Origin: Spirochaetes bacterium GWB1_36_13
Lineage (GTDB): Bacteria; Spirochaetota; GWB1-36-13
DNA: 44,087 nt
Assembly (NCBI GenBank): GCA_001829155.1
Contig: MIAO01000034.1
Location: 1,412-45,498 of the forward strand
Direction of reading: 5' to 3'
The notes beneath the pieces were generated by a model that worked only from the letters and a program-made list of their open reading frames with translations, ran no database searches and was not told where the DNA came from. Below are positions 20,929-43,286 of the stretch, piece after piece (position 1 is the stretch's first letter; each line of letters begins with the position of its first letter). The translations under genes were made by a program, and so were the position numbers.

Positions 20929-23595
20929 ATAAAACATTTAAGACAAAGCCTATTATTGATTTTTTTACTTTTTTTTCAATCCTCTGTCTTTTCGCAGGAA
21001 AAAGGGACTGAATGGGAAACCAGTAATTTTGAAACTCAGGAAATTCAAACAGGTGACTCAAAAAAATCCCTCGTCATTAAAAATGCGGATCAGATTTACT
21101 ACTCTGAAGAAAAAGACAGCACAGGATACACCACAGCCGAGCTTTACGGAAATGTTTATATTCTTTATGAAGAAAAACGAATTTTTGCAGACGAGATCAC
21201 AATCAAGTTTTTTGATCAAAGTATTAAAGAACTGGTTGCTTCAGGCAATATTATTATTGAAACGGATAAAAACATTACTATTGGAAAACTCCTTTTTCTT
21301 TACCCTGAAACGAAAAAAGGTCTTATTTATTCCGCTGAGACTTACAATAAACCCTATTTTATCCGGGGAGAATATTTCAAATTTCTGGGTGAAAACAAAC
21401 TGATTGTCAAAGATACGGAGTTTACAAACTGTGAATTCCAGCTTCCTCATTATGCTCTCGGAGCCAATAAAAGCTGGATTTATAAAGATGACATGGATAT
21501 GTTTTTCGGTTTTCATATCAAGGTCGGTGAAGATCCTATTTTTTATTTCCCTTTCATGTACCGTTCCTATTATGGCACCGGACTCATCACCGCGCTCGGC
21601 AATGAAAACGGTGTCGGTTTTTTCTTAAACAATACCTATCAGACAAAGGGTCAGTCTTATACATTAAAACTCATGATCGACCACTACCAAAAGACAGGAG
21701 AATACCTCGGTCTTGAACACACCAGAAGCGATATCGGAACCCTGACTTTAAAAACAGCATTGGTTTATGACCGTCATGTCAAGTATGAAGGGACTGAATT
21801 TAAAAATTTTTTCGAGGAAGTCAGCGGAGAAGGACCTGTTTCCGGTCGATCACTCCGTTACAAAATGGATATTGCTTTTGATAAAACGCTTTTATCGGGA
21901 GATAATTTTCTGGGACTGACCACAAGCATCAAAGGGAGCTGGTTTGAACCCACCGATCCTTATCTGACATCCCAATTTGAGTCCAGAAGAATGGATACTT
22001 TTGATATTAAAAAAATTCTTTTCCCGGAAGACTCCCCCTCTTCGCTTGCTGGAAGCTTTGCATCAGGTTCCGGACTAGGTCGGAAAATGGATTTTGCTAT
22101 AAACAGCTCTTTTTTAGGGTTTACGCTTTCAGTAACAGGAAATTTAAACTACAATATGTCTAAAACAGACAATGAAGAGAACGCCAAAAATCGTTACAAA
22201 CCGGATTATTACAAAAACTATAAGTCAAGCAGTACTTTTCCCAGTATTAATATCAGCCGCCCTTTTTCCCTTTTTGATCCGATTGCCCTCATTTTTGATC
22301 CCGCTTCTTTCGGCGAAGGGAATTCGATCACATTCCCCTTTAATCTTTCAACAGCAGCAGCCTATACTAAAACAAAAGGATATGACACTTCCGGTAAATT
22401 GACTTCCGAAACAATCAATGAATCCCTCAATTTAAATTTCACATCCCCCCTTACTTTCAACTTCAAGCCTTTTTCCGTTTCCCTTCCCTTCGGCATCAAC
22501 AACGGGAATCAGATTAACTATAATAAATCTTATTCCAACAGCATCTTATCCAATGATTATAAAAAAAACACCTATACTTTCACATTCAATTCTCCTTTTA
22601 ATTTTGCAATCGATGAAAAAGCATATAAAATCGCTTTTAATTTTCCGGTTTCAACTTCTTACACCCTCAATAAACAAAAAACCGCTTTTTCGACTTCAAC
22701 CAATACTTCATCATTGGACGCTTCCGCGACTTACAATTCGAAATCGACTTCTTTGGGAGGTACGGCTCAATTTGATTTTTTTAAAGAATACGAATACCTT
22801 CTCACCTCTCTTACTACCAATATTACCTACTCCAGCAGCGAAAAATACGGCGAAAACATAATCGATGATATTCAAAAAGGCAAAACCAAAAACTATACTT
22901 ATACTGCCAGCCTTTCTTTTCTTAAATCTTCCTTTTCACTTTCGACCAGTTCAAATCTCTCCGACAATACGGCAAAAGAAAGCCGAAAAGGTCCCTTAAA
23001 CCTCAATTTTTCTACATCCCTGATCCCTAATATCACAATTCAGGATTCTTTTTCCTACGACCGTTTTTTAAAAGAAAACAAGAGCAATAATTTATCCATC
23101 AACAGCAGCATTGCCACAAGAATTTTTATTACTGACAATTTCTGGATCAATTCTCTTTCTTTTAATACTTCATGGAACAGAAGTTATCAGGATTATAAAA
23201 GCAATTACCTCAGCTATTCATTCTCAATGAACTTTAATTATACGAAATTCTGGCAGTTCAGCCTCGTTTCCTCAGGAAGCAATAACAAGCTTTATTACTA
23301 TACCAAAAAAGTAGATGAAAGCATCCGCAGGGATTTCTGGAAAGACCTTTATAAATCGGTTAAACTCTGGAGCATTGAAGATCGTCAGAATACTTATTTT
23401 AAAATGAGCTCATTCGGTTTTAATATTAAACATGACCTCCATAAATGGATGCTGGAGCTTTCCTCCACTTTTACTCCTAAAATTGAGAGAAACGGCGCAT
23501 TTTATTTTGAAAGTTCCTTTTTATTTAAACTGACCCTCACCGAACTTCCAAGCTTGAACCCGACAGAAGTCAAAAAAACTTTCGGGCAGCAATGA
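20929..23595 (+). CDS. lptD: LPS-assembly outer-membrane protein LptD (probable AUA start)
   Basis: Outer-membrane barrel that inserts LPS into the outer leaflet. An N-terminal OstA jellyroll (about 45-190 of 888, with AELYGNVYILYEEKRIFADE and the ASGNIII strand) precedes a long barrel with PFMYRSYYGTGL at the junction and many alternating aromatic strands. Start choice: the frame is closed by TGA at 20890 and no ATG follows. ATA at 20929 gives KHLRQ plus a hydrophobic core ending VFS, a normal signal peptide. The TTG at 20956 leaves only a short uncharged stub. GAAGAG lies just upstream. It overlaps the next gene by four bases. Confidence 0.85.
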   Translation: MKHLRQSLLLIFLLFFQSSVFSQEKGTEWETSNFETQEIQTGDSKKSLVIKNADQIYYSEEKDSTGYTTAELYGNVYILYEEKRIFADEITIKFFDQSIKELVASGNIIIETDKNITIGKLLFLYPETKKGLIYSAETYNKPYFIRGEYFKFLGENKLIVKDTEFTNCEFQLPHYALGANKSWIYKDDMDMFFGFHIKVGEDPIFYFPFMYRSYYGTGLITALGNENGVGFFLNNTYQTKGQSYTLKLMIDHYQKTGEYLGLEHTRSDIGTLTLKTALVYDRHVKYEGTEFKNFFEEVSGEGPVSGRSLRYKMDIAFDKTLLSGDNFLGLTTSIKGSWFEPTDPYLTSQFESRRMDTFDIKKILFPEDSPSSLAGSFASGSGLGRKMDFAINSSFLGFTLSVTGNLNYNMSKTDNEENAKNRYKPDYYKNYKSSSTFPSINISRPFSLFDPIALIFDPASFGEGNSITFPFNLSTAAAYTKTKGYDTSGKLTSETINESLNLNFTSPLTFNFKPFSVSLPFGINNGNQINYNKSYSNSILSNDYKKNTYTFTFNSPFNFAIDEKAYKIAFNFPVSTSYTLNKQKTAFSTSTNTSSLDASATYNSKSTSLGGTAQFDFFKEYEYLLTSLTTNITYSSSEKYGENIIDDIQKGKTKNYTYTASLSFLKSSFSLSTSSNLSDNTAKESRKGPLNLNFSTSLIPNITIQDSFSYDRFLKENKSNNLSINSSIATRIFITDNFWINSLSFNTSWNRSYQDYKSNYLSYSFSMNFNYTKFWQFSLVSSGSNNKLYYYTKKVDESIRRDFWKDLYKSVKLWSIEDRQNTYFKMSSFGFNIKHDLHKWMLELSSTFTPKIERNGAFYFESSFLFKLTLTELPSLNPTEVKKTFGQQ

Positions 23596-26389: not shown

Positions 26390-29300
26390 TTATTGAGGAA
26401 GCCCGTCTTTATCCACCCATGTTCCGGTAGAAGTCAGTTTGTAAAGAGTAAAAGCAGTTTGATATCCGTATTTTGCTCCGTAAGTTCCATAATCAGGATA
26501 CCAGTTAATTCTCTTTGCCAAAGCGTGATCCAAAACGGTTGCTGAAACTTCTTCAGAATAAACTGAAGTAATCGTGTAAGTTTTGGTCACAATATCAGCA
26601 GTGTTATTTGCATCATCTTTTGCTGTTACTTTTATCGTAGTAGTTGCAGTAAACTTCAGTGTGCTTCCAGCTGTATAGGTTTTCTTGGTAGAACTTGTAA
26701 CTGGGTCGCTTCCATCTGTAGTATAAAAAATAGCTGGGCTTGCAGTTACATTATCTGTAGCAGAAAGAACCACATCCACTGATCCAGAATAGCTTCCTGA
26801 ATCTTTGCTGACTGTTACAACCGGTTTAACACCATCAACCTGTCCGCCTGATACAGTAACCGATTTGGTTACTGTTTTAATATTTCCCGCTGCATCATAG
26901 GCTTTTACAGTAATAGTATAAAGTCCATCCTGAGCAACAGTCCAGCTTGTATTGTAAGGAGCTGTTGTATCTGTAGAAAGAGGAGTTGTTGAAGTCCCAA
27001 TATAGAACTCTACTTTCGTAACTCCGACATTGTCAGTCGCTGTTACATCAATAGAAACAGTTCCAGCTGTTATGGAAGAAGCTGGAGCTGTGATAACGGC
27101 TTCTGGTGGAGTTACATCAGAATTATCCAATCCGAAAAACTTTAATGCCCAGTAAGAAGAATAAAGGTCTTTGTCAACGGCAAATCCTGCTGTTGCACCA
27201 CCTTGAGCAGCGCCTGTCCCGGGGTCAACTGTGATCGCGTGTCCCATTCCGTTGATCAGATAAGTTTCAACCACAGAAACTCCTGCTGAGTTTTTATAAA
27301 TTTTATGTTCGTGTCCGCTTATAGTTTCAGTTCCATCCGCTGTTTTATCAGTTCCATGAACTCCTGTCCATTGAGCAACCAAATCATCCGCATTTCCTGG
27401 ATAGACTGTATAGTCAGAAGTTCCCTGAAATACAACCACTCTTGGTTTTTTGGTGTTCGCAGGAATTAACGCAGCCCATTCCGCATCTGTTTTATCGATC
27501 GCCGCTCTCATACAAGTGAAGCCATCGGTCATTGTGGTCGCGCATTTATAAGGAATACCTGCCATAACAGCGCCTGACGCGAAAACATCCGGATAAGCAG
27601 CCAGCATAACAGTTGTCATAGCAGCGCCTGCTGAAAGACCGGTTACAAACACTCTATCTGTGTCAATTTTTCCGCTCAAAGACATAACCATGTTATAGAT
27701 AGAGAGAGCTTCTCCCTGTCCTCGGGTAATATCGCCGGGTTCAAACCAGTTAAAACATTTGTTTTGATTGTTTGAGCTGTTTTGTTCTGGATAGATGACA
27801 TAGAATTTGTATTTATCTGCCAATACATTCCACTCAGTATCATGGGCGTAACCTGCTGCATCCTGAGTACATCCGTGGAGAGCGACAACCACAGGAGCGC
27901 TTGCAGAGATTCCGCTAGGGGTGTATCGGTACATAGCCAGATTTCCCGGGTTAGAGCCGAAACTGGTTACTTTTTCCATCACTCCCGGAGTGATTGGGTC
28001 AGTGTTATTATTAATATTGATGGTGTAAGTTTGTGATTGAACGGCTGAAGCGTTTCCAGCTGTATCTTTTCCAAAGTATTTTAAAGTAGTCGTAGCAGAA
28101 ATACTGATTGGTGAAGAATAAACTAAAGAAGACTCGGTCGGAGTACTTCCATTGATAGTGTAATAAATAGTTGCCGCTTCATTCGATGTCAAAGAAACAG
28201 TAATAGCAGCAGTAAAAGTTCCTGTTTCTTTATCAGCTGTAATGACTGGAGCTGTTACATCCTCTGCTGTAAATGTATAAGTTTTAGCTACAACCGCAGA
28301 TTCTGCTGTCGCAGATTTCGCAAAATATTTTAAGGTTTTGACTTCACCAGCTGCTCCGGTGATAGAAATAGCGGCAGTATATTTAGTGGAAGATACTGTT
28401 GGCGCTGTTCCGTCCACAGTATAGTAAATATCGGCTGTCTGATTGACAGAAAGAGTCACTTCAATGGCAGTTCCTGCAGTGAAGCTTCCTGTTTCCTTAT
28501 CGGCGGTAACCACCAGTTCAGTCGGCTGAGCGCTTAAAAGACCAAAAAATTCAGCCGCATAGTAGGAAGACCAGAGATCTTTATCCATTGCGTAAGATCC
28601 GGTTGCCCCGCCCTGCTTCTCGCCTGTCCCTGGATCAACTGAAATAGCGTGTCCCATACTGGAAATTGAATAATAAATAACGACCGCTTTTCCGTCTCCA
28701 TTTTTATAGGTTTTGACAGTATGGCTTCCGACAGCCGCAGTTGCATCTGCCGTTTGGTCAGTCCCATGAACTGCTGTCCATTGATCCACCAGTTCAGTCG
28801 CATTTAAGTTTTTTACAGTTGAGTCAGTCGCTCCATGAAAAATAGCCATGGTTGGATAAGTCCCGCTGTATGAATAAGCTGAAGTTACGAGAGTTTTCCA
28901 TGCGCTAGGAGTTTTATCAGCCCCTGGAGACATACAGGAAAACGCATTGCTCATAGAAGTCGCGCATTTATAAGGAATACCTGCCATAACAGCGCCGCTT
29001 GCAAACACATCCGGATAAACAGCCAGCATAACAGTTGTCATAGCAGCGCCCGCTGAAAGACCGGTTACAAATACTTTTGAATTATCAACAGTGTAGTCTG
29101 TTTTCATCTTATCTACCATTTGTTTGATAGAAAGAGCTTCTCCGGAATTTCTTGCGATATCCCCAGATTCAAACCAGTTAAAACATTTGCTTGAATTGTT
29201 TGAGCTGGTTGTTTCAGCGTAAACAACATAGAATTTGTATTTATCAGCCAGTACATGCCACTCCGTATCATGGGCATAGGCTGCCGCATCCTGAGTACAT

Positions 29301-29545
29301 CCATGAAGAGCGACCACTAATGGCGCATTTGCAGGCACATCAGCCGGTACATATTTGTACATGGTCAATGCTCCCGGATTGCTTCCAAAAGATGTTACCT
29401 TAGTCAAGGTAACGGCTTTACTTCCGGTTGTAGTAGTGGTTGTAGTAGTGGTTGGAAGATCAACTGTTGGTCCGGTAGCACATCCTACAAAAAACAGGAT
29501 AAATGCCACAATCCCCAAAGCTGTCAGTTTAAGACTTTTTTTCAT
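26390..29545 (-). CDS. Lipoprotein with two tandem PHB-depolymerase-type esterase domains
   Basis: The signal peptide ends FFVGC (Cys22), then a poly-Thr linker. Esterase domain 1 (about 45-340) has GLSAG with Ser164, Asp241 in GATDST, and His299 in MGHAI. Ig/chitobiase-like linkers (about 341-510) follow. Domain 2 (about 521-815) repeats the plan with Ser638, Asp711 and His769. More Ig-like modules come next, then a tail with TWVDKDGLPQ. Both triads look complete. Family: PHB depolymerase or feruloyl/acetylxylan esterase (alpha/beta hydrolase). The substrate (polyester, lipid or plant wall) cannot be told. AAGGAG precedes the ATG, and a terminator follows the stop. Confidence 0.88.
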   Translation of the reverse strand: MKKSLKLTALGIVAFILFFVGCATGPTVDLPTTTTTTTTTGSKAVTLTKVTSFGSNPGALTMYKYVPADVPANAPLVVALHGCTQDAAAYAHDTEWHVLADKYKFYVVYAETTSSNNSSKCFNWFESGDIARNSGEALSIKQMVDKMKTDYTVDNSKVFVTGLSAGAAMTTVMLAVYPDVFASGAVMAGIPYKCATSMSNAFSCMSPGADKTPSAWKTLVTSAYSYSGTYPTMAIFHGATDSTVKNLNATELVDQWTAVHGTDQTADATAAVGSHTVKTYKNGDGKAVVIYYSISSMGHAISVDPGTGEKQGGATGSYAMDKDLWSSYYAAEFFGLLSAQPTELVVTADKETGSFTAGTAIEVTLSVNQTADIYYTVDGTAPTVSSTKYTAAISITGAAGEVKTLKYFAKSATAESAVVAKTYTFTAEDVTAPVITADKETGTFTAAITVSLTSNEAATIYYTINGSTPTESSLVYSSPISISATTTLKYFGKDTAGNASAVQSQTYTININNNTDPITPGVMEKVTSFGSNPGNLAMYRYTPSGISASAPVVVALHGCTQDAAGYAHDTEWNVLADKYKFYVIYPEQNSSNNQNKCFNWFEPGDITRGQGEALSIYNMVMSLSGKIDTDRVFVTGLSAGAAMTTVMLAAYPDVFASGAVMAGIPYKCATTMTDGFTCMRAAIDKTDAEWAALIPANTKKPRVVVFQGTSDYTVYPGNADDLVAQWTGVHGTDKTADGTETISGHEHKIYKNSAGVSVVETYLINGMGHAITVDPGTGAAQGGATAGFAVDKDLYSSYWALKFFGLDNSDVTPPEAVITAPASSITAGTVSIDVTATDNVGVTKVEFYIGTSTTPLSTDTTAPYNTSWTVAQDGLYTITVKAYDAAGNIKTVTKSVTVSGGQVDGVKPVVTVSKDSGSYSGSVDVVLSATDNVTASPAIFYTTDGSDPVTSSTKKTYTAGSTLKFTATTTIKVTAKDDANNTADIVTKTYTITSVYSEEVSATVLDHALAKRINWYPDYGTYGAKYGYQTAFTLYKLTSTGTWVDKDGLPQ

Positions 29546-29958: not shown

Positions 29959-32900
29959 ATGAAGAAAAAAATCGGGCATTATTTGATTCTTGAAACTTTA
30001 GGCAAAGGCGCTATGAGTGAAGTTTATCTTGCTCAGGATCAAGAAGCAGATAAAAAAATAGCATTGAAAAAGCTTTCCGGGTTTTCATCTGAAAATAAAA
30101 ATGAATCCCTTGTCCGATTTAAAAAAGAAGCGCATACCCTTTCACTGATTTCTCATCCAGGCGTACAAAAATGCTCTGAATTTTTTCAGGAAAAAGATTC
30201 TTTTTATCTGGCTATGGAATATTTTGAAGGAAAAAACCTGAAATACTCTTCTCATCTTTTTAATTTAAGAGAAAAAATCGAAATTATTTTAAAGATTTCA
30301 GAAATACTGGAATACATTCATCAAAAAGGAATTATCCACCGTGATTTAAAACCTGAAAACATTCTGGTAAAAAAAGAAAAAAAAGAAATCCAGGTAAAAA
30401 TGATCGATTTCGGACTGGCCTACCTCAATGATTTTTCAACCCTTTTCAGGCAGGGGCAGGGCATCGGGACTTTCTCCTATATTTCTCCCGAGCAGACCGG
30501 ACTTTTGAGAAGAAACATTGATCAAAGAAGCGATCTCTACTCTCTGGGCATTATGGCATATGAACTTCTGACCGGAGAACTTCCTTTTAAAGACAAATCG
30601 ATTTCCGCCCTCATTCACAAACATCTGGCAGTTATCCCCCAATCACCGGTTCTGATCAACGAAGAGATTCCCCCCGTTATTGAAAAAATAATCCTTAAAC
30701 TCCTTGAAAAAGAACCGGACGGACGATATCAAAGCGCAGAAGGGTTAAAAAAAGACCTTGAATTTTACTTGTCTGATTCTTCAAAAGAATTGAATCAGCT
30801 GGGATTAAATGATAAAACAAGCGGGATTCAGTTTCAGTTTAAAGCAGTGGGAAGAGATGAAGAGCTGGCTGAACTTGAAAAAATTTATGAAAAAACCTTA
30901 AAAAACAACTTTCAGATGTGTATTTTAGCTGGAAAATCAGGCGCTGGAAAAAGTAAGATTATGGAATCGTTCCGGGAAAATCACTTTTCAAGATCTACTT
31001 TATACCTTTTTTCAAAATGCGCCCAAAACACTTCCAATATCCCCTACTACTCTTTGATTGAATGGATCAAAAGCTTTGAAAAATATTTAAATTTTCAAAA
31101 CAAAACTTTTTTATCTTTTTTTTCTCAGGAAGAAAAACAAAAAATAATAAGTTTATCTAAAATTGTTCCTGAACTTTTTTACACTGAAAATAATTTCGAA
31201 AAATCTCAGGAAGAATTTTATTCTGAAGTCGAAAAATCAGAAATTTTTCAGGCTTTTACTGCCCTGCTTGACATCATAAGCGCAAAAGAAGAAAGCATTG
31301 TATTACTCATCGATGATATTCAGTGGGCAGATCAGGAGACTCTCAATAGTTTCGACTATTTTTTATCCGCCTGGCAGAAGAAAAAAATTCTGCTTCTTGG
31401 CACCTTGAGAGATGAAAAGAAAGATCTGCTGGATCCTTTCATGAAGTATAACAATTTTTATGTGCTCCCGATATTTTACTTCAACCGTAATAAAATAAAA
31501 GAACTGTGTAAAAAAATACTTTCTTCTGACTTTGAAATGGAAGAAGAATTTTATCAAATGATTGAAAAAAATACTTTTGGAAGCCCTTTTTATATTCAGG
31601 AAATTTTAAAAAATTTATTTCAAAATCAAATTTTATATAAAAACGGAACCCCCGAATGGAAAATAAACAATCAGAAATTTAAAAATTACCAATTTATTCA
31701 AGATTCGGCTGAAATAGCCTTTCACAGGCTGGAAGTTTTTTCAGAGCAGGAAAAAAAGATTCTGGCAGCCGCTGCAGTTATGGGAAAAAATTTTCATTCC
31801 GGCGCTCTTTATGAAATATTAAAAATTCTTCATTTTGAAAATCTGGAAAAAGAGAATTTTATCAGTCTTTTAGATAAGGCAAAACAGGAAATGATTCTTC
31901 AGGATCAGTTTTTGATAGGAGAGGGATATTATAGTTTTGTCCATGATAAAATTGTAGAAATGTTCAACAAAACAATAGACGAGAAGGAACGAAAAAAAAT
32001 ACACTCATCCATCGCTTTTTATCTTGAAAACTCAAGACAGGAAAAGATTCAATCTTCTATTTATGAACTGGCATATCATTATGATTTTACAGATAATCAA
32101 GAAAAAAAAGACTACTACAACCGTCTTGCCTATCAAAAAGCGCTTTCTCAATACGCTTTTCCAGATACGGTTTATTACATGAAAAAAATTGAAAAAAACT
32201 TTGATTATACCGCTTCTTTTACAGAAGAAAGCCTTGAATTTGTGATTTTTCTCTGTAAAATCATGCAGCAGATCGGGGAAATTAAAGAAAGTCTTTATTA
32301 TCTTGAAAAAATTAAAGAAAAGATTCAAAAATTTTCTTCTGAAAAACTAAAAATTGATTATTCTCTTCAGAGTGGAATTGCTTATTATTACATGAATGAC
32401 AATGTTTCTGCGCTTCAATTTTTTAATCAGTCTCTTATTTTATCCGAAAAGACTGGAAAAGAAATTAAAAACGGGATTCCTTACCGGCTGATAGGCTCTT
32501 CTTTCTGGTTCAGCGGTTTTATGAAGAAAGCGGAATATTATTTCAGCAAGGCAATCAAATATACCCCAAAAGATTCTCTGGATGAACTGCTCCCGATTCA
32601 TGGTCTTCGGGGCTGGTCTTTCGTTCTTTTAGGAGAAATTGAAAAAGCAAAAAAAGACATTGGTGAAATTGAAAAACATATCACAAAAATTACTCACCCA
32701 ATGATTCTTGCCCAGCTTTACCACTCGGCTGCCGTTTCTCTCATCTGGGGGGAAATCGATATTCAGAAAGGCTATAATTATGCCTTAAAAGCTTATGAAT
32801 ACGCTGAAAAAATCCACTATACTGTTTTTCAGTATTCGTCTTTAGCTTCACGATTTTTTGGAGAAATTTATCTTGAAGATTTTGAAAAGGCAGATAAAAC

Positions 32901-35070
32901 ATTTCATAAAATATCTGAATTTTCTGAAGAATACAAGATCAATATTGGAATCAATCTGATGTTAGCCTGGCAGGCAGAAAGTTTTTTCAGAAGAAAAAAC
33001 TTTTCAAAAAGTGTGCAGCTGGCTGAAAAAATTTATCAGAAAGAAGCGGCTGATAAAATTGCTCAAATTTTATCTCTTAGAATTTTAGCGATCGAAAGTT
33101 ATCGTTCAAAAGATTTGACTCAATTAGAAAAAATAATTGAGAAAGGGCTTGAAGTTTTTCAGGAAAGCGGAATACTGATGGAGGGAGCCTGTTTTATGGT
33201 TTTAAAAAAGCTCCTTCTGGAAAAAAAAGGAGAATCTTCTCAAGAAATAGATGATTTAATCAAGTCTTATAAAAAAGAAAATAAAGGTTCTGATGTTTTT
33301 TTCAACAGGGCTTACAAACTTTTACAACTCATTCAGGAAGAAAAACTCCCGGATACCAGCTCTATGTCTCTTTTTAAGGAAAATCTCCAACTGGAAAATA
33401 TTATTAAAATCAGCCAGATGGTTGCCGCTATATTTGATCTGGACAAACTTCTGGAAGCGATTGTCGAAAAAACGCTTGAAATAACCGGGGCTGAAAGAGG
33501 TTTTCTTTTTCTTTACCAAAAAGACAGACCCCTTGAATGCCAAGTCAAAAAAGGATGCTCCAGTAAAGGATTTCCCCCCATTTTTGATTTAATTTTGCAA
33601 TTTGTTGAAAAAAACAAGAAAGGAATTCTTTTTTCTTCTGAAACAGGCTTTTCTGAAAAAATAGAAATCAAAGACTGGGATCAATCAAAAATTGTTTCAA
33701 TGATTTCCATTCCCCTTCTTTTCAACGAAACACTGATCGGAATCCTTTATCTGGACTCAAGGCTTCTTAAATCTCTTTTTACAAAGGAAGATTTTAAGAT
33801 TCTTCAGGTTTTCACTGCTCAAGCCGCTATTTCCATTGTCAATGCGGAACGGACATCTATTATCAGGAAACAGTTTTTCAATCTGGTTGAAATTATTTCT
33901 TCTCTCATTTCAAATGCTTCTTCCCGAATTTATAACCGTACCCAGCAGACCGCTGTTTTTTCTGAACTCATTTCTCAAAAAATAGGCTTTTCACAGGAAG
34001 AAACAGAAAATGTAAGGATAGCCGCCCTGCTCCATGATCTGGGAATGATCGGGGTATTGGAAAAACTGGTTTATGAAAGAAATTTTCTCTCTGAGACAGA
34101 AAAAAAGATTTTAGAAAGCCACCCTGAAAAAAGTGTAGAATTAATCCAGGAACTTTATGGATCAGAAACAATCAAAAAAATCATTCTTCAGCACCACGAA
34201 AGATTTGACGGGAGCGGATATCCTTTAGGGCTGAAAGGAAAGGAAATCGAGACAGGAGCAAGGATTATTGCGCTTGCGGATGATTTTTCAGAACTCCTTG
34301 AAAAAAGAGATTTTCAGACTCTGGATAAAAAGGAAAAAATCATTCAAACTCTCAGGGAAGGAAAAAATACTTTCTATGATCCTGAAATTACAGAGGTTTT
34401 AATCCAGCTGATCGATGAAAAGAATCTGGTTTATCTTGCTGATGAAAAAGATATTTTTTATCAGGAGACTCCAGACGGATTTTTCTGGGAAATCCCTTCC
34501 AATATTTATTTTGAACCCATTATTGTCAGTAAAATTATTGAAAAAGCAGAACCATTTCTGGAAGACGCTGAAATTCTTTTTTCCATTGACTACAGTCTGG
34601 CAGAAGTCATCCGCAACGCTATTGTTCACGGCAATAAGTATAATGAAAAGAAAAAAGTAAAGATTTATTTTTCGCCCGTAAAATCGAGTTCAGGAGTGTC
34701 TTTAATATTTCGCATTCTGGACGAAGGCAGCGGGATGAATATCAAAGAACACAACCTTTTTTCAGAATCCAGGCGCGAACTTTTTTCTGTCATCCAGAAA
34801 CTGAAAGAATACAACCAGAAAGAATCGCCTGCTTCCCTGCTTCATTCCATTTACAAAGACTTAAACTTGTTTAAAGAAAAATATTATTCTGATTTCAACA
34901 CTTTCCGCCAGCTGGAAGAAGGAATTGAATTGACTGGAGGGGTAGGTCTTCTTTATGTCAAAAAAACATTTGACAATATTGATTTTAAAAATATTTTCAT
35001 CGGGAATAAAATCTGCGGAACCGAGGTGATTATGGAGAAAAAAATTGAGGATAGCCTAAAAAATCAGTAA
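29959..35070 (+). CDS. 1703-residue kinase / AAA ATPase / TPR / GAF / HD-GYP / RsbW-like ATPase protein
   Basis: One chain with, in order: a Hanks-type Ser/Thr kinase (7-270; G-loop GKGAMSEV 15-22, Lys37, Glu57, HRDLKPEN 127-134, DFG 150-152, SPEQ 176-179). Next, an AAA_16-type ATPase (about 295-690; Walker A GKSGAGKS 325-332, Walker B LLIDD 449-453). Then TPR-like helices (about 700-1125) and a GAF domain (about 1150-1298). Then an HD-GYP domain (about 1310-1485; HD 1359-1360, HHE 1412-1414, DGSGYP 1417-1422) and an RsbW/HATPase_c-like end (about 1530-1690; Asn1553 box, DEGSG 1588-1592, GGVGL 1660-1664). No membrane segment, so it is cytoplasmic. HisKA is absent. It probably links phosphorylation with c-di-GMP or partner switching. 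mutS follows at 35107. Confidence 0.9.
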   Translation: MKKKIGHYLILETLGKGAMSEVYLAQDQEADKKIALKKLSGFSSENKNESLVRFKKEAHTLSLISHPGVQKCSEFFQEKDSFYLAMEYFEGKNLKYSSHLFNLREKIEIILKISEILEYIHQKGIIHRDLKPENILVKKEKKEIQVKMIDFGLAYLNDFSTLFRQGQGIGTFSYISPEQTGLLRRNIDQRSDLYSLGIMAYELLTGELPFKDKSISALIHKHLAVIPQSPVLINEEIPPVIEKIILKLLEKEPDGRYQSAEGLKKDLEFYLSDSSKELNQLGLNDKTSGIQFQFKAVGRDEELAELEKIYEKTLKNNFQMCILAGKSGAGKSKIMESFRENHFSRSTLYLFSKCAQNTSNIPYYSLIEWIKSFEKYLNFQNKTFLSFFSQEEKQKIISLSKIVPELFYTENNFEKSQEEFYSEVEKSEIFQAFTALLDIISAKEESIVLLIDDIQWADQETLNSFDYFLSAWQKKKILLLGTLRDEKKDLLDPFMKYNNFYVLPIFYFNRNKIKELCKKILSSDFEMEEEFYQMIEKNTFGSPFYIQEILKNLFQNQILYKNGTPEWKINNQKFKNYQFIQDSAEIAFHRLEVFSEQEKKILAAAAVMGKNFHSGALYEILKILHFENLEKENFISLLDKAKQEMILQDQFLIGEGYYSFVHDKIVEMFNKTIDEKERKKIHSSIAFYLENSRQEKIQSSIYELAYHYDFTDNQEKKDYYNRLAYQKALSQYAFPDTVYYMKKIEKNFDYTASFTEESLEFVIFLCKIMQQIGEIKESLYYLEKIKEKIQKFSSEKLKIDYSLQSGIAYYYMNDNVSALQFFNQSLILSEKTGKEIKNGIPYRLIGSSFWFSGFMKKAEYYFSKAIKYTPKDSLDELLPIHGLRGWSFVLLGEIEKAKKDIGEIEKHITKITHPMILAQLYHSAAVSLIWGEIDIQKGYNYALKAYEYAEKIHYTVFQYSSLASRFFGEIYLEDFEKADKTFHKISEFSEEYKINIGINLMLAWQAESFFRRKNFSKSVQLAEKIYQKEAADKIAQILSLRILAIESYRSKDLTQLEKIIEKGLEVFQESGILMEGACFMVLKKLLLEKKGESSQEIDDLIKSYKKENKGSDVFFNRAYKLLQLIQEEKLPDTSSMSLFKENLQLENIIKISQMVAAIFDLDKLLEAIVEKTLEITGAERGFLFLYQKDRPLECQVKKGCSSKGFPPIFDLILQFVEKNKKGILFSSETGFSEKIEIKDWDQSKIVSMISIPLLFNETLIGILYLDSRLLKSLFTKEDFKILQVFTAQAAISIVNAERTSIIRKQFFNLVEIISSLISNASSRIYNRTQQTAVFSELISQKIGFSQEETENVRIAALLHDLGMIGVLEKLVYERNFLSETEKKILESHPEKSVELIQELYGSETIKKIILQHHERFDGSGYPLGLKGKEIETGARIIALADDFSELLEKRDFQTLDKKEKIIQTLREGKNTFYDPEITEVLIQLIDEKNLVYLADEKDIFYQETPDGFFWEIPSNIYFEPIIVSKIIEKAEPFLEDAEILFSIDYSLAEVIRNAIVHGNKYNEKKKVKIYFSPVKSSSGVSLIFRILDEGSGMNIKEHNLFSESRRELFSVIQKLKEYNQKESPASLLHSIYKDLNLFKEKYYSDFNTFRQLEEGIELTGGVGLLYVKKTFDNIDFKNIFIGNKICGTEVIMEKKIEDSLKNQ

Positions 35071-35106
35071 ATTTTGAAACCTAGATTAATCAAAAAAAGG
35101 TTTATT

Positions 35107-37665
35107 ATGGAAGATTCCAAACTTACTCCCATGCAGCAGCAGTATTTTGAGATTAAAAAAAAATATTCGGATTTTATTCTTTTTTTCAGACTCGGCGATT
35201 TTTATGAAATGTTTGAAGAAGACGCTGAGAATGCTTCCAGAATTTTAGACATTGCCCTGACACAAAGAAACGGGCAGAAAATGTGCGGCTTCCCCTACCA
35301 TGCGCTTGATAACTATCTTCATAAAATCATCAAAGCAGGAAGAAAAGCGGCTATCTGCGAGCAGGTGGAAGAGCCGGGCAAAGGAAAAATTGTAAGGCGG
35401 CAAGTGGTCGAGGTGATGACCCCCGGTACTTTCACGAGCGAAAAATACCTTTCCAGCGAAGAAGATTCTTTTCTCACCGCTCTTCATTTTTCAGAAGATA
35501 AAATCATCGCTGTCTGCGCAGACGCCTCAACAGGAAAGTTTTGGCTGATCGAAGAAAAAAGAAGCCCTGAAAGACTTTCATCCCTTTTAAAACTGGTCAA
35601 TCCCTCTGAAATTATTCTTTCAGAATACCCTAAAAATTTTGAATCTATTATCAAAAACTACTATTCCACTTTGGTACCTGAGTACTATTTTTCTCCCGCT
35701 GTCAATGAGATCATGCTTTTAGAACATTTTAAAGTAGGCACTCTCAAAGGTCTTGGGATTGAAAACCCTTTTTTTGCCGGAGCTTCTGCAGCTGTTTTAC
35801 GCTATTTAAAAGATAATTTATTAAAAGAAATCAAGCATTTAGACCATATCCGTTTTATCCGGCCGGAAGAATTTGTCTATCTTCCTGAAGCCACAGTCCG
35901 GAATCTGGAAATCCTTGAGCCTCTTTTCACCTCGCAAAAAAACACTTCGCTGTTTCAAAACCTCAACCAAACCCTGACCTCTATGGGAGCCAGAGAACTC
36001 CGCAACTGGCTGATTTACCCTCTCATGGATATTGAAAAAATCAACGAGCGGCTTTCGCAGACAGAGTTTTTAAAAGACAGAAGCGATATTTCCAATAAAA
36101 TCAGAACGATTCTTAAAAACATTCCTGATCTGGAAAGAATGCTCTCCCGGATCGGGCTTTTTAAAACCAATCCGAAAGAAGTGATTGCCTTCAAAGAAGG
36201 GCTTAAAAATCTGGAACTATTGAAAACTTTTCAAGAACTCCCTTTTGATGAGATGAAAACCCTTAACCCGCTTCTCAGTGTCATCAGTCAAATTGAAAAA
36301 ACGGTTTATGAGAATCCTCCCATTGATTTTTCTGAAGGAGGAGTCATTCAAGAAGGGATCGACCCAGAGCTGGATTCTCTTAAAAATATTACCCAGAAAG
36401 GAAAAGAGTATTTACTGGAAATAGAAAAAAGAGAAAAAGAAAAAACAGGGATCAATACATTAAAGCTCCGTTACAATAAAGTCATCGGCTATTATATCGA
36501 AATCACGAAAGCAAACCAGAATTCCGTACCCAAAGAATATATCCGTAAACAGTCTATGGTCAATGCAGAACGATATACAATTGAAGAGTTGATTGAATAT
36601 GAATCAAAAATTCTGGATGCAAAATCTTCTTTGATCGAACTTGAAAAAAAGATTTTCAATCAGCTTTTAATGAATATCATAGAACAAGTGAAAGAAATCC
36701 GGGCCAATATTATTTTTGTCAAAAAACTCGATATTATTGCCTCATTTGCAAAAACCGCCAAAGAGAGAAAATACACCCGCCCCCTGGTCAACGATGAATT
36801 AAAAATAACGATTGAAGAGGGTCGTCATCCGGTTGTCGAGCTTTTTACCGATCAATTTATTCCGAACTCAATCAAACTGGATGAAAAAGAAAACCGTCTC
36901 CTGCTGATCACAGGGCCCAATATGGCAGGAAAGTCCACTTATTTGCGTCAGGCGGCTTTGATTGTCCTGATGGCGCATATCGGATGCTTTGTGCCTGCTA
37001 AAAAAGCAGTGATAGGACTGACGGATCAAATTTTTACCCGTATCGGGGCATCCGACAACCTGGCTGGCGGCGAATCCACCTTTCTTGTAGAAATGACCGA
37101 AACATCCCAAATTTTAAGAAACTCGACTCAAAGATCCCTCATTGTCATGGATGAAGTGGGAAGAGGCACCAGTACCCATGACGGTCTTTCGCTTGCCTGG
37201 GCAATTGTCGAATACCTGAATAACCCTTCAAAAAACCGCGGTAAAACCCTTTTTGCCACTCATTACCATGAAATGACGGTTTTAGGTGAGGAACGGGGAA
37301 TTAAAAACCACCGGGTCGCTGTCAAGGAATGGAACAATGAGATTGTCTTTCTCCATAAAGTAGAAGAAGGCGCATCCGATAAAAGCTATGGAATTCATGT
37401 GGCAGAAATCGCAGGGATTCCTCTCCCCGTTATTGAAAGGGCAAAAGAGATTTTAGCCTCCATGGAAATCAGCCTGATTCAAAATGAAAATAAGTTTTTA
37501 AAAAAACGGGATGACAGCGAAAATATGCTTTTTTCAGTGGCTGAAGATCCATTTGAAAAAATTAAAACCAAAATTCTTTCGGTCGATATTCTTCAGACAA
37601 CCCCGATTCAGGCAATCCTGATCCTTGAGAATCTTCAGAAAGAAATCAGGAAAAATAAAGGGTGA
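35107..37665 (+). CDS. mutS: DNA mismatch repair protein MutS
   Basis: Recognises base mismatches and small loops and starts repair with MutL. The N-terminal mismatch-binding FxE motif lies in GDFYEMFEE. The ATPase motifs are GPNMAGKST (603-611) and VMDEVGRGTSTHDG (from about 680, with Asp682 and Glu683). At 852 residues it is a full-length MutS1. ATG at 35107 is preferred; an upstream TTG (35074) would add 11 residues not typical of the family. It begins 36 bases after the kinase stop. mutL is not in the window. Confidence 0.96.
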   Translation: MEDSKLTPMQQQYFEIKKKYSDFILFFRLGDFYEMFEEDAENASRILDIALTQRNGQKMCGFPYHALDNYLHKIIKAGRKAAICEQVEEPGKGKIVRRQVVEVMTPGTFTSEKYLSSEEDSFLTALHFSEDKIIAVCADASTGKFWLIEEKRSPERLSSLLKLVNPSEIILSEYPKNFESIIKNYYSTLVPEYYFSPAVNEIMLLEHFKVGTLKGLGIENPFFAGASAAVLRYLKDNLLKEIKHLDHIRFIRPEEFVYLPEATVRNLEILEPLFTSQKNTSLFQNLNQTLTSMGARELRNWLIYPLMDIEKINERLSQTEFLKDRSDISNKIRTILKNIPDLERMLSRIGLFKTNPKEVIAFKEGLKNLELLKTFQELPFDEMKTLNPLLSVISQIEKTVYENPPIDFSEGGVIQEGIDPELDSLKNITQKGKEYLLEIEKREKEKTGINTLKLRYNKVIGYYIEITKANQNSVPKEYIRKQSMVNAERYTIEELIEYESKILDAKSSLIELEKKIFNQLLMNIIEQVKEIRANIIFVKKLDIIASFAKTAKERKYTRPLVNDELKITIEEGRHPVVELFTDQFIPNSIKLDEKENRLLLITGPNMAGKSTYLRQAALIVLMAHIGCFVPAKKAVIGLTDQIFTRIGASDNLAGGESTFLVEMTETSQILRNSTQRSLIVMDEVGRGTSTHDGLSLAWAIVEYLNNPSKNRGKTLFATHYHEMTVLGEERGIKNHRVAVKEWNNEIVFLHKVEEGASDKSYGIHVAEIAGIPLPVIERAKEILASMEISLIQNENKFLKKRDDSENMLFSVAEDPFEKIKTKILSVDILQTTPIQAILILENLQKEIRKNKG

Positions 37666-42126: not shown

Positions 42127-43110
42127 TCATTTAAAACTGATCCCAATTTTAAATCCTGCTGAAAATTGAATGCTTTTTAATTTTTTATCTGTTGTCGCGA
42201 TGTATCCGGCAGAACCTTCATTGTTTGTTTCATATCGGGTCTGCACATCTTTTCCGTCCGTTTGGATAGATTTAAAATCTGCGTTGATGGAAAAAATGAT
42301 ATTATTATAAGAATAGTCACCCTGAAAAGAGATGAGAAAAGCCTTACCTTTAGTATCTCCCTCTCCTTTCTTGCTTCTCATTTTGTGATCATCAAGATCT
42401 TCTGCTTTAACAAAAGGCGAAAAAGCCAGTTTTCCTTTGATTAATAAACCTTCGCTTAAATAGATTTCCGGAACCAGTTCAATATAAGGAATTGTATAAG
42501 TTACATCATAACTGCCTACTACTCCGCTTATATAATAATGGTCAGCTGTACTTGGAGTTAAATAAGTACTGTATTGAGAATAAGAAGGATACCATTGATT
42601 CAGATTACTGATTTCAAAAGAAAGTGAATGATAAAAAAACCCTGCCCCAAACGCAATCGAATAATTGGGCTGAATTGATATTTTATAATTTATATCGATA
42701 TCAATCTGGTACCATTTTTTTATTTTTGTATCGCTTTCTGAAAATACATCCAGACTGTTGGTTGTCGCGCCCGGAACTCCGCTTAAATACCAGATTCCAA
42801 AGTCTGAATCTTCTGTTTTTCCAGATTTCTGCTGGATATTTGTTTTAGTTTTTCCATTAATAGTCCATTTTTCTGATAATGGAAGAGAAAAATCCAAATT
42901 CAACGACAAGACATCCACCGGAAATTTCAATTCGCTCAAAGGAAAATGAAGATATCCGGTTTCTGACTCTGTTTCGATTTTTCCCCCGATTTGATAAAGA
43001 GTGTATCCGGTATTCCTTTCCACTCCCAGATCAATTTTTATTTCATCGGCTATAATCGATAAAGGACTTGAAAGTAAGAATAATAAAATAAAATTTTTTT
43101 TTAAATTCAT
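42127..43110 (-). CDS. Omptin-like outer-membrane protease
   Basis: A signal peptide (about 1-21, ending SIIADE) precedes a 300-residue beta-rich barrel. Compared with OmpT from memory, the order and spacing of key segments agree: GYTLYQIGG near the start, an Asp-x-Asp at 101/103 (OmpT Asp83/Asp85), IPYIELVPEI, and Asp240-Asp-His242 (OmpT Asp210/His212). The barrel ends in Phe-Lys rather than a final Phe. Omptins cleave between basic residues of host peptides or defence molecules. ATG at 43110 follows GGGAG; the TTG at 43122 lies before that site. It is flanked by a 50-bp direct repeat. A porin-like hypothetical barrel is the alternative. Confidence 0.65.
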   Translation of the reverse strand: MNLKKNFILLFLLSSPLSIIADEIKIDLGVERNTGYTLYQIGGKIETESETGYLHFPLSELKFPVDVLSLNLDFSLPLSEKWTINGKTKTNIQQKSGKTEDSDFGIWYLSGVPGATTNSLDVFSESDTKIKKWYQIDIDINYKISIQPNYSIAFGAGFFYHSLSFEISNLNQWYPSYSQYSTYLTPSTADHYYISGVVGSYDVTYTIPYIELVPEIYLSEGLLIKGKLAFSPFVKAEDLDDHKMRSKKGEGDTKGKAFLISFQGDYSYNNIIFSINADFKSIQTDGKDVQTRYETNNEGSAGYIATTDKKLKSIQFSAGFKIGISFK

Positions 43111-43286
43111 TTTTTCTCCCAATTATATATTTAAGTTTCTTAAATTAATATAAATTTCCTTAAAAAAACAATAGAACTCAGGGTGAATTTTTAAAAAACA
43201 TAAGAAACTTGAATAGATTTATTATTTTTATAAAAGTTTTAAGAATTTTTCAGGAAGCTCGGAAACGCCCAAAGCCTGCTGAAAAA

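Follow-up and report, generated by a model that had tools for sequence, protein, structure and literature searches.

The window analysed here, a stretch of 44,087 nucleotides from Spirochaetes bacterium GWB1_36_13, carries on its plus strand a complete and uninterrupted open reading frame (29959..35070) that runs from an ATG start to a TAA stop and encodes a protein of 1703 residues. The ATG is preceded by AAAGGAAACCT, with AAAGGA upstream, so that the frame has a plausible ribosome-binding site. The protein joins, in this order, a Ser/Thr kinase, an AAA_16 NTPase, a TPR-like region, a GAF domain, an HD-GYP domain and an RsbW/SpoIIAB-like ATPase. This is the order that a sequence-only reading of the same DNA had proposed, and it is borne out by Pfam, with the ATPase end secured by homologues, PDB profiles and Foldseek and the TPR region by homologues, so that we regard the architecture as very well supported. 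No STAS, PP2C or sigma factor gene adjoins the reading frame, its neighbours being mutS (35074-37665, plus strand) and a divergent gene for a secreted esterase. The start of mutS lies 3 nt (TTG) or 36 nt (the likely ATG) past the stop codon, and given this short gap the two genes may be co-transcribed. The divergent gene (26390-29545, minus strand) encodes a secreted protein of 1051 residues whose two esterase domains resemble PHB depolymerases and whose C-terminal repeats are of the chitobiase type; it looks like the product of an internal duplication. The window also contains a homologue of the Omptin family of outer-membrane proteases (42127-43122, minus strand; E 6e-14) and an open reading frame of 879 residues (20956-23595, plus strand) without a Pfam match at E 0.001.

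The N-terminal part of the protein, whose domains, like those that follow, are given in plus-strand coordinates, starts with a Hanks-type Ser/Thr kinase (residues 10-264, 29986..30750; PF00069, E 1.4e-48) in which the catalytic motifs (K, HRDLKPEN and DFG) are intact. The AAA_16 NTPase that follows (residues 297-471, 30847..31371; PF13191, E 4.7e-19) retains Walker A (GKSGAGKS, 325-332) and Walker B (LLIDD, 449-453) motifs, and residues 295-871 match NCBIfam TIGR03903 below the cut-off of that family. The helical TPR-like region has approximate limits (residues ~740-1130, 32176..33348) and rests on homology and on sub-threshold Pfam matches (TPR_MalT, 17.5 bits; TPR_12, 16.5 bits), TPR_12 being strong in 35 of 40 homologues of this part of the protein. 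A GAF domain (residues 1160-1293, 33436..33837; PF01590, E 7e-10) completes what we term the chassis.

This kinase-AAA-TPR-GAF chassis is widespread in spirochaetes and carries exchangeable outputs. Homologues at E <= 1e-60 occur in 57 of 393 genomes of the phylum Spirochaetota, and the protein described here has the same kinase-AAA_16-TPR-GAF order, the TPR by homology only. When the C-terminal ends of 40 such homologues, chosen among the closest and at most two per genome, were scanned with Pfam, half of them (20/40) ended in SpoIIE, eight in AraC and five in GGDEF; the remainder comprised two histidine-kinase ATPases, one cyclase, one LuxR domain and three proteins without an output that are truncated by contig ends. 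Neither HD-GYP nor HATPase_c_2 was found in these 40 proteins among the matches listed (25 of 26 families), although a sample limited to the closest homologues may overlook rarer architectures. Similarly, the seven chassis paralogues inspected in the source genome end in a LuxR-type HTH (four, assigned by eye), in SpoIIE (two) or in GGDEF-GAF-HisKA-HATPase (one), and the HD-GYP/RsbW-like module is absent from all of them. The last of these paralogues (L179:3358-15340; G000 C151:1-16500), a protein of 2029 residues with the order kinase-AAA-TPR-GAF-GGDEF-GAF-HisKA-HATPase, lies near genes for an ECF-like sigma factor, a tandem STAS protein and an RsbW-like ATPase of 132 residues.

Behind the GAF domain lies an HD-GYP domain (residues 1312-1477, 33892..34389) whose match to PF13487 (HD_5) is highly significant (E 2e-31), as the sequence-only reading had anticipated, though the domain is degenerate. 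Its residues were compared by alignment to PmGH, to one cGAMP phosphodiesterase and to 114 other HD-GYP domains, together with those of five homologues that share the C-terminal 400 residues. The signature HHExxDGxGYP is present (HHERFDGSGYP, 1412-1422), and the HD pair, H1388 (H250 in PmGH), HH1412-1413, GYP, D1441 (D305) and R1450 are retained in all six proteins. The full PmGH set (H189, H221, D222, K225, H250, H276, H277 and D305) is nonetheless incomplete, the equivalents of H189 and K225 being missing. The position of the first metal histidine (H189) is occupied by R1327 and is never histidine in the six, whereas 98% of the 114 domains have it; the HDxGK lysine (K225) is replaced by M1363, and by Met or Leu throughout the six, against Lys in 91% of the others; and the K317-type substrate position, Arg or Lys in 94% of the others, is Q1453 here and Gln in every member. 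A recent Leptospira survey (PMC12943098) reports that the H189A mutant of PmGH has strongly reduced activity and that K225A disrupts it, that K317A alone has no substantial effect and that, according to work cited there, HD-GYP domains tolerate some substitutions. The turnover of c-di-GMP put forward in the sequence-only reading is hence not supported, since all three residues are lost in the six proteins, and the HD-GYP domain, judged from these alignments, most likely no longer hydrolyses c-di-GMP. That identical losses persist at 39-44% identity suggests a shared non-canonical role and not a fresh mutation.

The C-terminal end (residues 1500-1697, 34456..35049) is an ATPase of the Bergerat fold, and several lines of evidence place it with RsbW and SpoIIAB. 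In a Pfam scan of the whole protein, HATPase_c_2 matches residues 1536-1678 with E 7e-4 and 20.1 bits, under the cut-off of 27.4, and the ATPase end scanned alone reaches 26.6 bits, still under it; the three homologues scanned score 44-46 bits, over the cut-off. SpoIIAB and RsbW rank first when a profile of the six sequences is compared to the PDB, and the best NCBIfam match is spIIAB. An AlphaFold model of this end built from 32 sequences (mean pLDDT 84.6) adopts a Bergerat fold to which two helices are added, and its top Foldseek matches are SpoIIAB (1tid, E 1e-6) and RsbW (6m37); a model of the whole module from six sequences reached a pLDDT of 63 and was not used for conclusions. The N-box (EVIRNAIVHGN, with E1549 and N1553), the G1 motif (DEGSGM, D1588) and the G2 motif (GGVGL, 1660-1664) are intact. 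The N-box glutamate aligns with that of SpoIIAB, where it is the catalytic base, and no module member departs from this residue, the N-box asparagine or the G1 aspartate. HisKA has no match anywhere in the protein (Pfam, E 0.1), and no HisKA/DHp bundle was found ahead of the ATPase, the modelled segment that precedes it being a beta hairpin. The absence of HisKA and the RsbW-like character of the end, both claimed from the letters alone, thus stand; on profiles and predicted structure, the end is RsbW/SpoIIAB-like, not histidine-kinase-like.

Between G1 and G2 the alignments and the model reveal a two-helix insertion in the ATP lid (residues 1595-1649, 34741..34905), the helices of which (113-138 and 142-167 of the model) correspond to residues 1595-1620 and 1624-1649 and lead into a conserved YYxDFNxFR motif (1642-1650). 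The lid is short in ordinary RsbW-like ATPases, one of which (L152) is encoded in this genome, and of intermediate length in a family of stand-alone spirochaete ATPases of about 185 residues that is related to the ATPase end by profile (hhalign 98.2%, E 4e-14). This SpoIIAB-like family with an extended lid is spread across the Spirochaetota, and at two loci (L178:7795-10760, G000 C128; L180:4354-7336, G001 C12) its gene is followed by those for a REC-like/PilZ protein, CheW and GlyA, neighbours that suggest some connection with chemotaxis and c-di-GMP.

The HD-GYP and ATPase domains form an output module of about 400 residues (1298-1703, 33850..35067) that is 39-44% identical to its five homologues, so that six proteins of Spirochaetota carry both domains together. 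The homologues come from four genomes (G041, with two copies, G101, G200 and G218, G200 being JAFGJK010000109.1). Pfam detects a 7TMR-DISM 7TM domain in three of the five, and the N-termini of the other two resemble, by eye, those of these three. A scan of contigs returned, among the matches listed, one full module, which is the G200 protein, and otherwise the HD-GYP half only. The HD-GYP/ATPase pair is therefore a transferable module found on two kinds of receptor. Its combination with the kinase-AAA-TPR-GAF chassis was encountered once, and a search of open-access papers yielded no description of an HD-GYP/RsbW fusion, in agreement with the rarity of the exact order suggested beforehand. The transferable module, the helical lid insertion and the exchangeable chassis outputs within the same genome had escaped the earlier reading.

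A search for partner-switching genes in the rest of the genome, as that reading had advised, yielded 36 SpoIIE matches and, above cut-off, 12 STAS and 10 HATPase_c_2 matches, some of the latter being probably other GHKL ATPases. Thirty-six SpoIIE matches in a genome of 3.04 Mb (151 contigs) constitute an unusually rich repertoire, and the presence of all three families makes a partner-switching role possible. In G041:C9 and G101 the module gene has a STAS gene ~1.1-1.4 kb away, and none is found near the module genes of G041:C1 or G218. We regard this linkage as weak, for it is confined to species of one genus and an unrelated gene lies in between.

Taken together, these observations suggest a sensor that feeds straight into partner switching in place of two-component signalling. 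The kinase, the STAND-like AAA/TPR part and the GAF domain would constitute a cytoplasmic multi-input receptor chassis relaying signals to the C-terminal module, where the degenerate HD-GYP would most likely act as a gate through ligand binding or dimerisation. The ATPase end would most likely phosphorylate, or bind and release, a STAS-domain partner, counteracting SpoIIE-type phosphatases, some of which are carried by sister copies of the chassis. We infer the kinase activity of the end, its STAS partner, the gating by HD-GYP and the opposition to SpoIIE paralogues, and we assign even chances to the reading as a whole, in which a cytoplasmic sensor kinase signals through a Ser/Thr kinase of the RsbW type that is gated by a ligand and targets a STAS partner. 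Against it stand the lack of an adjoining STAS, PP2C or sigma gene, the HATPase_c_2 score under the cut-off and the lid, since an insertion this long is unlike the solved structures of RsbW and SpoIIAB and the end may not phosphorylate a STAS protein. The ATPase end could instead act as a GHKL-type ATP-dependent switch or adaptor that works through its lid helices, for instance on chemotaxis or c-di-GMP effectors, with no kinase activity. The unusual lid, the long-lid stand-alone ATPases that are its nearest profile relatives and the fact that one of these has a REC-like/PilZ protein and CheW as neighbours in two genomes speak for such a switch, but the retained N-box Glu and Asn and G1 motif, and the anti-sigma kinases as best structural matches, do not, and we consider it a tentative alternative.

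Less probable is that the two domains work as a pair of active enzymes, HD-GYP still hydrolysing a cyclic dinucleotide through a changed metal site while the ATPase reports ATP or controls the phosphodiesterase. The other metal ligands, GYP and R1450 kept in all six modules, and the tolerance of some substitutions noted in PMC12943098, would accommodate it, but the universal lack of the first histidine, the HDxGK lysine and the K317-type residue weighs against it, as do the PmGH mutants of the same survey, even though K317A alone has no substantial effect; after the alignment to PmGH and 114 HD-GYP domains, an active c-di-GMP phosphodiesterase is disfavoured. Least probable, and in our view quite unlikely, is that the parts were fused by accident and to little functional effect, with a vestigial end and all the work left to the chassis kinase. 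A domain order found only once and the want of a conserved adjoining partner gene speak for it, and yet the motifs are intact, the frame is uninterrupted, the same module is kept on a second type of receptor and the ATPase alignment retains 41 invariant columns in 211 positions at 34-42% identity.

The preferred reading of a ligand-gated RsbW-type kinase can be extended, speculatively, to a new type of module in which a non-hydrolysing HD-GYP senses a cyclic dinucleotide and gates the fused helical-lid RsbW-type kinase, on either receptor; we hold this to be possible but doubtful. If true, partner switching would report directly, inside one chain, on the second messenger and on the state of the sensor. 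In known cases, such as SiaABCD, partner switching and c-di-GMP are joined by separate proteins, as two reports describe (PMC8457831, PMC7647112), and a fused module of a degenerate HD-GYP and an RsbW-like kinase, shared by two unrelated types of receptor, would place that link within one protein. HD-GYP domains without catalytic residues are numerous, and the module would also offer a testable role for one of them.

Among known systems, the protein recalls the dual kinases that combine Ser/Thr-kinase, GAF and histidine-kinase domains, namely the cyanobacterial cbSTKIII, such as HstK, and the fungal Chk1, Mak2 and Mak3, with which it shares an N-terminal Ser/Thr kinase followed by GAF and by an ATPase-containing output, AAA_16 having been reported in Chk1 too (PMC2176072, PMC9069115). 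Those proteins, however, end in HisKA-HATPase_c, with REC added in fungi, and not in HD-GYP and an RsbW-like ATPase without HisKA. With the RsbW and SpoIIAB anti-sigma kinases it has in common the Bergerat fold (Foldseek E 1e-6), the N-box Glu and Asn, G1 and G2, but its ATPase sits behind HD-GYP, bears the two-helix lid insertion and has no adjoining STAS or sigma gene. Phosphodiesterases of the PmGH type share the HD pair, HHExxDGxGYP and most metal ligands, whereas the module lacks the equivalents of H189, K225 and K317. The spirochaetal chassis proteins, with their SpoIIE, AraC, GGDEF, LuxR, HisKA or cyclase ends, have the same chassis at ~25-35% identity over 600-1300 residues, but the module was seen in none of the 40 sampled and none of the seven paralogues, among the matches listed. 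The closest counterparts of the C-terminal module are the 7TMR-DISM/HD-GYP/HATPase_c_2 proteins of Spirochaetota, which at 39-44% identity have the same output module, residue losses and lid insertion, and in which the input is a membrane 7TM receptor in place of the kinase chassis.
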